Assembly: GCA_001438205.1 (NCBI GenBank)
Contig: LICG01000009.1
Coordinates: 1 to 56,045, forward strand
From: Cryomorphaceae bacterium BACL7 MAG-120322-bin74
GTDB lineage: Bacteria > Bacteroidota > Bacteroidia > Flavobacteriales > Schleiferiaceae
Length of the DNA stretch: 56,045 nucleotides
Direction of reading: 5' to 3'
Shown: in pieces, positions 26,871 to 42,750 of the stretch
How the letters are laid out: every line of letters begins with the position of its first letter
Numbering within the stretch: position 1 is the stretch's first letter
Made by a program: the position numbers and the translations under genes
Notes under the pieces: generated by a model
What the model saw: the letters and a program-made list of their open reading frames with translations, nothing else
The model's database searches: none
What the model was told of the DNA's origin: nothing

Positions 26871-27746
26871 TTAGGTCTTCTTATTTACCATCCAAACGCC
26901 CACAAGAATCGTCACCATTCCCAGGTAATGGTTGATCAAAAGATCTTCGCCAAAGATCAGTCCCCAGCCCAAGGCAACAATGGGAATCACATACGTAGTG
27001 GAGGCGGCAAAAAGCGGCGTCGTCATCGCAATAAGCCGGTTAAAAACCACCATAGCCAAACTGGTGCCTACCATCCCTAAGAATGCAATGGCGGCCAAGC
27101 TTGACCACATTTCTGGTGAGCCTGTGAGTTGATCCGTCACATGCGACCCCGCAAGAATGCCCATCGAGGGAACGGAAGCGCCCAGCATCGCAAAAAGGGT
27201 AATGGCTCTGGGGGATAGGTGTTTTAGTCGATCTCCAATGGTGTTTATACTGACACCATAACAGGCTGCAGCCAACACGGCCAAGAGCAAGTAGGGCCAA
27301 TTTTGTCCAACGCTTGAATGATCATCGAATGGATTGATCAGGATAACAGCCCCTATAAAACCAACTGCCACCCCAAAAGCGCGCAAGCGCTTTAATGGGC
27401 GCCCAAAGGCAATTAACCCAACCAATAAAGTAAATAGGGGCGTCATAGAATTGGTAATCCCTACCACACCTGATGGAACGTGTGCCACGGCAATAGGGAA
27501 GAGCACATAGGGAATAGAGTTGCCCAGGATAGCCACCAATAATAAGGGCGCAAGATCTGCCTTGCGGAATTCTTTGAGTTGCGGAAAGGCAAAGCTCAAG
27601 GTAAATACTGTAGCAAAAAGAATACGCGCAGCCCCAATTTGTATAGCGGTAAAACCGATCAAGGCATGTTTCATCAAAATGAAAGAGGATCCCCACACCA
27701 ATACGAGTGCGACAAAAATGATCCAGGTTAGAAGAGGGCGGTTCAT
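26871..27746 (-). CDS. EamA/DMT-superfamily transporter
   Basis: 291 residues with ten predicted membrane helices in two EamA repeats. Examples are LLTWIIFVALVLVWGSSFIL at the start, containing the family's WGSSF, and LAMVVFNRLIAM and LGWGLIFGED in the second half. Family members export metabolites such as amino acids or purines; the substrate here is unknown. The start at 27746 (MNRPLLTW) is chosen because the longer frame enters the divergent ctaA gene and because a -7 box lies seven bases upstream. It is divergent from ctaA with only 31 bases between start codons. Confidence 0.88.
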   Translation of the reverse strand: MNRPLLTWIIFVALVLVWGSSFILMKHALIGFTAIQIGAARILFATVFTLSFAFPQLKEFRKADLAPLLLVAILGNSIPYVLFPIAVAHVPSGVVGITNSMTPLFTLLVGLIAFGRPLKRLRAFGVAVGFIGAVILINPFDDHSSVGQNWPYLLLAVLAAACYGVSINTIGDRLKHLSPRAITLFAMLGASVPSMGILAGSHVTDQLTGSPEMWSSLAAIAFLGMVGTSLAMVVFNRLIAMTTPLFAASTTYVIPIVALGWGLIFGEDLLINHYLGMVTILVGVWMVNKKT

Positions 27747-27753
27747 AGGGCGC

Positions 27754-27761
27754 CAAAGGTA
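27754..27761 (-). promoter_or_regulatory. -7 box (TACCTTTG) of the EamA gene
   Basis: A full match to TAnnTTTG on the minus strand, seven bases before the ATG at 27746. It is one arm of the palindrome CAAAGGTAGATTACCTTTG; the other arm is the ctaA box. Confidence 0.6.
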
Positions 27762-27764
27762 GAT

Positions 27765-27772
27765 TACCTTTG
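27765..27772 (+). promoter_or_regulatory. -7 box (TACCTTTG) of ctaA
   Basis: A full match to TAnnTTTG, five bases before the ATG at 27778, back to back with the EamA box three bases away. It predicts a leaderless ctaA mRNA. Confidence 0.62.
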
Positions 27773-27777
27773 CATCC

Positions 27778-28866
27778 ATGCCACACAGCCCCACCACAAA
27801 ATGGACCTTTGTCCTACGTAGGCTTCTCCAGGCCTCGATTGCATTGACCATTTTAGTCATACTGGCGGGTTCCATTGTCCGAATGACGGGTAGCGGTATG
27901 GGCTGTCCTGATTGGCCTAGATGCTTTGGATTGACGGTCCCTCCGACCCAAGAGGCACAGGTTATTTGGGCGCCGGAAACTTTCTATGCTGAAGGTCGGA
28001 TGATTTTGCACCATGACACTTTGTGGGTAGCGGAGGCTTCCTTTACCAGCGGCCTTGTCATGCAAAAGGATCATTGGAGCCCCTATGACCGCCATGATTA
28101 TGCGGTTTTTAATCCCGTACATACGTGGATCGAATACATCAACCGGCTCCTAGGTGCGCTGTTGGGCATTCCTGTGTTTTTGGCCACACTTTGGACCTTT
28201 TGGCGGTTCAAAGCACATCCTAAATGGTCCTTCACCATTTTAGCGGCATTGTTTCTTTTGGGATTTGAAGCATGGTTGGGTAAGGTTGTGGTGGAGGGCA
28301 ATCTTGTGCCGAATCATATCACCTACCATATGGCCGGGGCGTTCTTGCTCCTTGGTTTATTGGCGGCTGTTTACCGCAGTGTTTCGACTGAATGGGAGAT
28401 TCATGCCCTGCGCGCAGAGCATGAGATAGAAAAGGTCAATGCAGACCGCAAAGGTGTTTATCGGCTGTTCCTTTGGCTTATTGCGTTGCTCAGTGTGCAA
28501 ATATTGATGGGGACACAGGTAAGAGAAGAGGTGGATGTGCTGATCAAAACCTTTGGGCTGACGTCAGACCGGAGTGCATGGGTTACCCAGCTTCCCTTTG
28601 CCCTCTACGTGCATAGAAGTTTTAGCATCGTACTCCTTGCACTGTCTTATTATCTCTACCGAAAATCTTTTGGATTGGCCGGATTAAAAGTCCGGTCGGC
28701 ACTTGTATTATATGCCTTATTGGCAGAAATAGCCATCGGCGCGTCCATGTATTATTTGTCTATTCCACGATGGATGCAGCCGTTGCATTTACTCTTGAGC
28801 GCAATCTCTTGGTATCTATTGGTAGATGGGGCCTTTAAGGCGTGGCTCATACTGCGTAAAAAGTAG
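27778..28866 (+). CDS. ctaA: heme A synthase (COX15/CtaA family)
   Basis: A 362-residue, eight-helix membrane protein that oxidises the C8 methyl of heme O to the formyl of heme A, the cofactor of aa3-type cytochrome oxidases. The opening helix and loop LAGSIVRMTGSGMGCPDWPR is the signature of the COX15 type. Histidines for the two hemes lie in VHTWIEYINRLLG, NHITYHMAG, YVHRSFSI and LQPLHLL-like positions (here MQPLHLLLS). Between helices 1 and 2 there is an insert of about 40 residues. A respiring, aerobic organism is implied. The cytochrome oxidase genes are not in this window. Confidence 0.93.
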   Translation: MPHSPTTKWTFVLRRLLQASIALTILVILAGSIVRMTGSGMGCPDWPRCFGLTVPPTQEAQVIWAPETFYAEGRMILHHDTLWVAEASFTSGLVMQKDHWSPYDRHDYAVFNPVHTWIEYINRLLGALLGIPVFLATLWTFWRFKAHPKWSFTILAALFLLGFEAWLGKVVVEGNLVPNHITYHMAGAFLLLGLLAAVYRSVSTEWEIHALRAEHEIEKVNADRKGVYRLFLWLIALLSVQILMGTQVREEVDVLIKTFGLTSDRSAWVTQLPFALYVHRSFSIVLLALSYYLYRKSFGLAGLKVRSALVLYALLAEIAIGASMYYLSIPRWMQPLHLLLSAISWYLLVDGAFKAWLILRKK

Positions 28867-41316: not shown

Positions 41317-42702
41317 TTAGCACATATCCTCGGGACGTACCCAAGCATCAAATTCTTCAGGTGTAACAAACCCCAGTTTTACGGCAGCTTCTCGCAAGGT
41401 GGAGCCTTCGGCATGCGCCGTTTTGGCAATCTTGGCCGCTTTATCATACCCAATGTGCGGATTAAGGGCCGTAACCAGCATCAGGGAATTTTCTAGATGT
41501 AGCTGAAGCACGGGAAGGTTGGGCTGAATCCCCCCCGCGCATTTGTCCGCAAAACTGCGGCATGCATCGCCAATCAATCGCGCACTCTGCAGTACGTTAG
41601 CCGCTATGACAGGCTTGAAGACGTTGAGTTCAAAATGCCCTGTAGCGCCACCGATGCTCACTGCGACATCATTGCCCATGACTTGGGCAGCGACCATGGT
41701 TAAAGCTTCGGGCTGTGTAGGATTTACTTTTCCTGGCATGATAGAAGAGCCAGGCTCATTGTCGGGAATCATGAGTTCGCCAATGCCTGATCTGGGTCCG
41801 CTGCTCAACATGCGGATATCGTTCCCAATTTTCATCAGAGAAACGGCGACACGCTTTAAGGCGCCGGAGAGTTCAACCATAGCATCATGGGCAGCAAGGG
41901 CTTCAAACTTATTGGGTGCACTGACAAAAGGTTGGCCGGTAAGTTTTGCAATCTGGGCGGCGACCTTTTCTGCATAGCCTTCAGGGGTGTTGAGTCCTGT
42001 ACCTACGGCAGTACCCCCGAGAGCAAGTTCTGCCACCATTTCTAAAGCAAGGCGAAGTGCACGCATGCCGTTGTCCAATTGCTGCACATAGCCGCTAAAC
42101 TCTTGGCCTAGCGTTAGCGGGGTTGCATCCATAAAGTGGGTGCGACCTGTCTTCACAATCGAAGCAAAGTCAGCCGATTTTGCCGCCAATACATCGCGCA
42201 AGTGCTGAATGCCGGGCAAAGTAGACTTGGCTACTTGCATATAGGAGGCAATATGCATGGCGGTAGGGAAGGTGTCGTTGGAAGACTGCGACTTATTGAC
42301 GTCATCGTTGGGGTGCAACACTTTTGTTTTATCGGTCAATTGTCCGCCTTGCAACACGTGTCCGCGATAGGCAATGACCTCATTGCAGTTCATGTTGCTT
42401 TGCGTTCCGGACCCCGTTTGCCAAATCACCAAGGGGAATTGATCATCTAATTGGCCCGAAACGATCTCATCGCATACTTGGGCAATAAGTTGCGCTTTTT
42501 CTATCTGGAGCACACCTAATTCTGCATTCGTAAGGGCAGCTGCTTTTTTCAAATAACCAAAAGCGTGAATGATCTCTTTGGGCATGCTGCCTTCTGGACC
42601 GATCTTAAAATTATTGCGGGAGCGTTCCGTTTGGGCGCCCCAGTAGACGTTAGAGGGTACATGGACTTCGCCCATGGTATCCCGTTCAATTCGTGTGCTC
42701 AT
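41317..42702 (-). CDS. fumC: class II fumarate hydratase
   Basis: A 461-residue fumarase C of the TCA cycle, hydrating fumarate to L-malate without iron. The family signature [11 protein letters not shown] is intact, with the loop containing the catalytic serine, and [20 protein letters not shown] supplies the other conserved region (active-site histidine in GRTHFMDA). The start at 42702 ([13 protein letters not shown]) lies five bases after a perfect -7 box; the frame could extend seven codons further but would then include the promoter. It converges with arsC, with 15 bases between stops. Confidence 0.97.
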
Positions 42703-42707
42703 AAATA

Positions 42708-42715
42708 CAAAGGTA
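42708..42715 (-). promoter_or_regulatory. -7 box (TACCTTTG) of fumC
   Basis: A full match to TAnnTTTG on the minus strand, five bases before the fumC ATG. A TTG lies about 22 bases upstream. It predicts a leaderless fumC mRNA. Confidence 0.62.
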
Positions 42716-42742
42716 GGGTTCAACCCAAGCCCATTTCCAATG

Positions 42743-42750
42743 TATATTTG
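42743..42750 (+). promoter_or_regulatory. -7 box (TATATTTG) of the 54-residue membrane protein gene
   Basis: A full match to TAnnTTTG, 23 bases before the ATG at 42774. It gives the small gene its own promoter. Confidence 0.5.

Follow-up and report, generated by a model that had tools for sequence, protein, structure and literature searches.

Opposed -7 boxes in a 19-base palindrome as a putative bidirectional promoter of ctaA and an EamA-family gene

The ctaA/EamA locus and its near-start boxes

The window analysed here is a stretch of 56,045 nucleotides from genome G000, a 1.74-Mb assembly in 77 contigs. Its genus is referred to as g1 and the sister genus as g12. Within the window, an EamA-family transporter gene and ctaA diverge from an intergenic region of 31 bp, which extends from the EamA ATG (27746-27744, minus strand) to the ctaA ATG (27778-27780, plus strand). 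From left to right this region is composed of 7 nt, CAAAGGTA, GAT, TACCTTTG and 5 nt. The preliminary description of this DNA had reported a palindrome with perfect 8-bp arms at 27754-27772, each arm a TAnnTTTG box, with ATGs 7 nt to the left and 5 nt to the right, and this was confirmed: the 19 bases are CAAAGGTA + GAT + TACCTTTG. The features of the locus are as follows.

26871..27746, minus strand: EamA-family transporter gene, 291 aa, stop codon included (Pfam)
27747..27753, minus strand: gap to the EamA start codon, 7 nt; predicted transcription start 27748-27749, which would give a leader of about 2-3 nt
27754..27761, minus strand: left arm, putative -7 box of EamA (TACCTTTG on the minus strand); found in 19/19 aligned g1/g12 genomes
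27762..27764, no strand: 3-bp spacer, GAT; in relatives AAC, CGC, CTC or 4 bp, letters not conserved
27765..27772, plus strand: right arm, putative -7 box of ctaA, TACCTTTG; first 7 letters in 19/19 genomes, last letter A in 6/19
27773..27777, plus strand: gap to the ctaA start codon, 5 nt; predicted transcription start 27777-27778, which would give a leader of 0-1 nt
27778..28866, plus strand: ctaA, heme A synthase (COX15/CtaA), 362 aa, stop codon included (Pfam)

The ctaA product matched Pfam COX15-CtaA (E=2.3e-40) and the product of the divergent gene matched Pfam EamA (E=1.1e-30). ATG 27778 is the earliest possible start codon in the ctaA frame. The EamA frame is open further upstream, to 27875; protein homology in relatives begins at Met 27746, and 16 of the 18 g1/g12 loci with an EamA match align from residue 1, the remaining two (L011 and L014) from residue 8. 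A 19-mer of this kind, with up to three mismatches, is expected by chance 0.02 times per window. The CAAAGGTAN{2,5}TACCTTTG-type pattern, with the last G optional, gave one site in G000 and none in the reversed control.

The Bacteroidota housekeeping sigma factor recognises TAnnTTTG as its -7 element, according to the accessible parts of three reports (PMC6847099, PMC9723704, PMC7366714). As described in the portions available, the box of F. johnsoniae occupies -12 to -5, avoids G at the two free positions and precedes the transcription start by 4-5 nt, and its -33 partner is weak and hard to find (PMC6847099, PMC7366714). Both strands of the window locus carry TAnnTTTG with no G at the free positions, and the distances to the start codons (5 nt for ctaA, 7 nt for EamA) are consistent with a box placed 4-5 nt before a transcription start.

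As counted with a crude ORF caller, which in the g12 genome G032 overlooked several double sites found by pattern, TAnnTTTG peaked 4-5 nt before in-frame starts, 29 times in G000 (456 kb, 386 ORFs), as against 2 for the control motif GTTTnnAT and 0 for TTnnGTAT; in G032 (254 kb, 217 ORFs) the near-start counts were 16 versus 0 and 2. The two free positions were most often filled by CC (12/37 in G000, 15/26 in G032), so that a perfect palindrome easily arises from two boxes. The palindrome here is perfect because TACCTTTG, this commonest box, forms both arms, with 3 bp between them. With the same ORF caller, a near-start box was found in G000 in 16/108 ORFs whose upstream neighbour is divergent and in 20/294 whose neighbour is codirectional, and in 13/80 and 13/147 in G032; these counts yield no inference, because operon-internal genes sit in the codirectional group.

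The preliminary description had also placed each promoter's -33 region inside the opposite gene. They do coincide with the start of the opposite gene, yet contain no conserved -33 motif: a TTG 17-23 bp upstream occurred in 0/19 genomes on the ctaA side and in 5/19 on the EamA side. Provision of the -33 element by the opposite gene's start codon was rejected, since no TTG was consistent. The near-start promoters of G000 (36) and G032 (26) showed no -33 motif either. The missing element was not treated as decisive, because in F. johnsoniae, too, it proved difficult to find. A G directly precedes the near-start box (position -13) in a fraction of 0.47 of the 36 promoters of G000 and 0.65 of the 26 of G032, and may form an extended -7 element replacing the absent -33.

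Conservation and presumed origin of the layout

Among 60 relatives, ctaA was present in 46. In genus g1 it was found in 20 of 22 genomes; in two of these the contig starts within the gene, so the upstream region is readable in 18. CAAAGGTA-N3-TACCTTT lies directly before ctaA in all 18 readable g1 genomes (N4 in G018) and in G032. In two further g12 genomes, G062 and G063, a pattern match outside the alignment gave a string identical to that of G032. Because the pattern used to select the 19 aligned rows already demanded 15 of the 16 arm letters, the invariance of these letters is not an independent count. What the selection left free is the outcome that none of the readable g1 genomes failed the palindrome pattern.

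Both boxes are complete in 13 of the 19 genomes. In the other six, A replaces the last G in the ctaA arm only; in these six g1 genomes the ctaA-side box is TACCTTTA and the left arm is unchanged. In the 18 rows whose spacer measures 3 bp, the invariant columns numbered 8 in the left arm, 7 in the right arm and none in the spacer; in the flanks they numbered 4/45 on the left and 2/45 on the right. Spacer length was 3 in 18/19 genomes and 4 in G018. The gap between the ctaA start and its box was 5 nt in 17/19 genomes, 6 nt in G018 and 4 nt in G032, which has a GTG start, while the EamA gap was 7 nt in 16/19 and 8 nt in 3/19. An in-frame GTG or TTG lies still closer to the ctaA box in G009 and G018. 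The gap letters and the CtaA N-termini vary among the relatives despite these near-fixed distances. A fixed distance with free gap letters is expected if the transcription start is fixed at the start codon. The alignment of relatives proposed in the preliminary description thus retained the palindrome, with near-fixed start distances, in g1 and G032.

The same description had taken relatives with this gene pair but no conserved palindrome as evidence against its reading. No such locus was found among the 18 readable g1 genomes or in G032. Outside these genera, EamA is divergent from ctaA without the palindrome at 5 of the 10 other ctaA loci (L020, L022, L023, L024 and L026), and there the aligned starts are 109-757 bp apart. 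At L022 an HMA-domain gene lies between EamA and ctaA. A near-start box of EamA is already present 5 nt before the ATG in L022 and 4 nt before it in L026, and the ctaA gene of L023 has TACTTTTG 4 nt before its ATG. The pair without the palindrome at these older loci suggests two separate promoters that were later joined, and does not refute the two boxes. The simplest history, and probably the correct one, is that two separate near-start promoters were joined through loss of the intervening DNA: a divergent pair already equipped with such promoters would have lost the DNA between them, in this presumed order.

Two observations were made on the intervening DNA. The order EamA, HMA-domain (metal-binding) gene, ctaA, as in L022 1071-1500, occurs in some other genera, and the HMA gene is missing between EamA and ctaA in g1 and g12. 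By eye, the intervening stretches of L024 and L026 are similar.

A class of back-to-back boxes

Genomes were searched with the pattern CAAADDTAN{0,24}TAHHTTTGN{3,8}ATG, in which an ATG lies 3-8 nt from one box, and with the reversed pattern as control. The search accepts exact boxes and ATG only and misses degenerate boxes and GTG or TTG starts; two hits are scored where both sides have an ATG. G000 gave 15 hits and its reversed control none. The 22 g1 genomes, G000 included, gave 366 hits against 5 (10.4 per Mb), and the three g12 genomes gave 117 against 0 (22.9 per Mb). In the 25 genomes of genus g6 there were 161 hits against 4 (3.5 per Mb), and in 23 other genomes of the same family of at least 3 Mb there were 72 against 43 (0.9 per Mb). 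This family tally (22 g1, 3 g12, 25 g6 and 23 large genomes) was drawn from 88 genomes.

Elsewhere in the order, hits per Mb were 10.8 versus 0.97 for the control in family f11 (30 genomes), 9.5 versus 0.7 in f8 (5 genomes), 4.0 versus 0.8 in f7 (8 genomes), 3.5 versus 0.6 in f16 (34 of its genomes, 0.3-0.6 Mb), 3.2 versus 0.8 in f6 (58 genomes, mostly large), 3.1 versus 0.3 in f15 (5 genomes), 2.8 versus 0.9 in f9 (4 genomes) and 2.2 versus 1.1-1.2 in f3 (59 genomes). The layout exceeds its control nearly everywhere in the order. The window locus is a member of a class of putative compact bidirectional promoters that is dense in its genus, in the sister genus and in two small-genome families, f8 and f11.

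Families f8 and f11, with genomes of 1.3-2.0 Mb, are about as rich in sites as the window's genus, and the other small-genome families are not. Small genome size was rejected as the sole cause, because f7, f9, f15, f16 and g6 are small yet much poorer in sites; genome size alone is therefore no predictor. When the boxes were separated by 25-54 bp, 41 hits were found, compared with 107 at 0-24 bp in the same five genomes, with one control hit each. Overlap of the two boxes through a shared TA was not enriched (34 versus 29 in the control, 23 genomes, pattern without ATG) and was ruled out as the main form.

For analysis at the level of sites, 111 sites from eight genomes were grouped by encoded protein. 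This set leaves out G005:C15, G013:C23 (a duplicate of C17), G032:C5, C8 and C9:28376, and all of G007. A separate class-site comparison, of which only the G000 and G032 results were used, omitted G013:C14:35961, G013:C17 and G005:C15. The spacers of the 111 sites are 2-24 bp long and follow no strict step, for which reason a fixed helical phase between the boxes was rejected; spacers of 0 or 1 bp are absent, which was not counted as significant. The arms are unequal in 75 of the 111 sites and identical in 36. Both starts lie 3-8 nt from their own boxes in 50/111 sites (4/13 in G000, 15/24 in G032), a distance that the class search imposed on one side only.

In at least two of the eight genomes, 21 divergent pairs recur, and 15 of these 21 orthologous pairs have a spacer whose length is not the same in every genome. 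The divergent pairs def/ruvX, folE with a ketoacyl-synthase III-like partner, and pyrD/smpB are supported by Pfam, as is tgt with a glycosyltransferase-like partner whose match is just below the cut-off. Pfam support was obtained on one side only for sites at panB, ddl, lnt, a TauE-family gene, a thioesterase gene, an RNA methyltransferase gene and ftsK. The def/ruvX layout, with both boxes kept, occurs in all 21 g1/g12 genomes that have ruvX. Its spacer is 11 in 12 g1 genomes, 5 in 8 g1 genomes and 3 in G032; its box letters are constant in 20 g1 genomes, TATC for def and TACC for ruvX, and are swapped in G032. In the g1 genomes looked at, the distance between box and start is 14-29 nt for one of the two genes. 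The spacer at the ddl site is 23, 15, 12 or 2 bp among genomes. In general, then, constraint falls on the boxes and not on spacer or symmetry. The small two-sided share in G000 (4/13) and the def/ruvX distances indicate that many members of the class would be leaderless on one side only.

A probable bidirectional promoter and its alternatives

We consider it very probable that the palindrome is formed by two abutting, opposed -7 boxes, which act as near-minimal promoters for (nearly) leaderless ctaA and EamA. The two opposed TACCTTTG boxes, 3 bp apart, would be recognised by the Bacteroidota housekeeping sigma factor. Each would serve as a near-minimal promoter without a recognisable -33, and transcription would start at most about 3 nt from the start codon. 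Polymerase binding in one direction would produce a (nearly) leaderless ctaA mRNA, and binding in the other a (nearly) leaderless EamA mRNA. The proposal of two back-to-back -7 boxes serving two (nearly) leaderless genes, already made in the preliminary description, gains support at the level of sequence from the conserved palindrome and its spacing. Several observations count against this explanation: the EamA gap of 7-8 nt exceeds the 4-5 nt peak; TACCTTTA, on the ctaA side in six genomes, is a weaker match to the box; many class members would be leaderless on one side only; and compaction does not follow genome size alone. The scarcity of leaderless mRNAs in the Bacteroidota studied so far may be held against it as well. 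In the available parts of the reports, leaderless mRNAs are 5.5% in F. psychrophilum, and about 3.7% of leaders are shorter than 10 nt in B. thetaiotaomicron (PMC9723704, PMC7366714); leaderless genes were reported in 1 of 37 Bacteroidetes/Chlorobi genomes by a method tuned to Pribnow-type boxes (PMC3160421).

Some 28-30 bp separate the predicted starts, and a polymerase seated one way would cover the opposite box, so that occupancy by two polymerases would be mutually exclusive by geometry; on these grounds steric exclusion is likely. Its importance would depend on how strong the promoters are. The preliminary description went further and saw a built-in exclusive switch, that is, polymerase competition at a shared site selected to pit EamA against ctaA. 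We regard a selected switch as quite improbable. The close predicted starts and the 3-bp spacer retained in 18/19 genomes speak for it, but unrelated housekeeping pairs have the same layout with varying spacers, and we know of no functional opposition of ctaA and EamA. Recurrence between many ordinary pairs makes the layout look like tight packing and not like a special switch. Of the earlier claim, exclusion of polymerases by geometry stands, and the switch itself is unsupported. The accessible text on E. coli bidirectional promoters bears on both sides: strong activation one way represses the partner, but at basal activity all five promoters tested are too weak for competition (PMC12825309).

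Even less probable, in our judgement, is an operator at which a dimeric regulator would control both genes, with the palindrome serving this function alone or in addition to the promoters. The preliminary description had raised an operator for a dimeric protein on account of the symmetry. The perfect 8-bp arms fit an operator. The CC/GG inside the boxes is invariant in the 19 genomes, which lends weak support; in a comparison of G000 with G032, by contrast, just one of the 10 boxes at five further pairs retains its free letters. However, the free letters of def/ruvX are equally fixed in g1 (20/20) without symmetry. No matching changes in both arms, as expected of an operator, were seen; instead, six of the 19 genomes change the ctaA arm alone. 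Two copies of the commonest box account for both the letters and the symmetry, and the class has unequal arms in 75/111 sites with spacers of 2-24 bp. The operator was disfavoured on these grounds. Short inverted repeats are common, but a functionless chance repeat is hardly credible here, given an expectation of 0.02 per window, retention in 19 genomes amid diverged flanks, and enrichment of the class over its controls.

The two-box promoter may be compared with known systems. With the Bacteroidota sigma promoter it shares the box letters, the avoidance of G at the free positions (TAHHTTTG) and a weak or absent -33, as far as the consulted parts of the reports describe them (PMC6847099, PMC9723704, PMC7366714), together with a distance of 4-5 nt from box to start, which is a predicted one here (PMC6847099). 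It differs in having two opposed, abutting boxes with start codons at or next to the predicted starts. E. coli bidirectional promoters, in the part of the paper available, typically have starts 18, 10 or 23 bp apart and a shared -10 element (PMC12825309). Common to both are one short sequence, divergent mRNAs and one polymerase at a time, the last presumed here (PMC12825309). In contrast, the boxes of the window locus do not overlap and are 3 bp apart, with predicted starts 28-30 bp apart, outside the 10-23 bp of the E. coli type. As in leaderless genes described in the accessible part of PMC3160421, the box-to-start spacing is such that neither a 5' leader nor a ribosome-binding site would fit; here, unlike there, the near-start peak is plain with TAnnTTTG, and the window locus is two-sided. 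A literature search with subscription papers outside its scope returned no description of the abutting-box layout. A bidirectional promoter built from two boxes that abut but do not overlap, with a (nearly) leaderless gene on either side, would thus provisionally be a new form of such promoters.

A broader reading, which we hold to be rather doubtful, is that several Flavobacteriales lineages use minimal bidirectional promoters genome-wide, at which the orientation of polymerase couples the output of many neighbouring gene pairs. Such promoters would consist of two abutting, non-overlapping -7 boxes within about 18-40 bp, often with both genes leaderless and with a -33 on neither side; a class so constituted is put forward with the same reserve. 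If it were true, neighbours at the shortest spacers would show anti-correlated expression, and the geometry would be distinct from that of E. coli, where the -10 elements overlap.

The class sites are countable natural test sites, with the same kind of box and spacers of 2-24 bp that change at orthologous pairs. They bear on how tightly promoters pack and on whether polymerase competition limits packing. Bacteroidota have no Shine-Dalgarno sites, and the class also bears on leaderless translation initiation in this phylum. For the window, a general layout replaces a special switch, and the likely start codons of EamA and ctaA are fixed.

Some similar sequences were seen elsewhere. Among the matches listed (80 of 103 stretches), of which many outside Bacteroidota are probably due to chance, the exact CAAAGGTA/TACCTTTG repeat with ATGs on both sides was found in a Phormidium sp. 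(L192 428-469) and in a member of Selenomonadaceae (L220 1332-1369); these copies of the inverted repeat are possibly due to chance or to an unrelated operator. In the window itself (42700-42750), a TACCTTTG box lies 5 nt before ATG 42702 on the minus strand, inside an ORF listed from TTG 42723 that is presumably class II fumarase-like. From the position of this box, the gene is probably leaderless, with its true start at ATG 42702.
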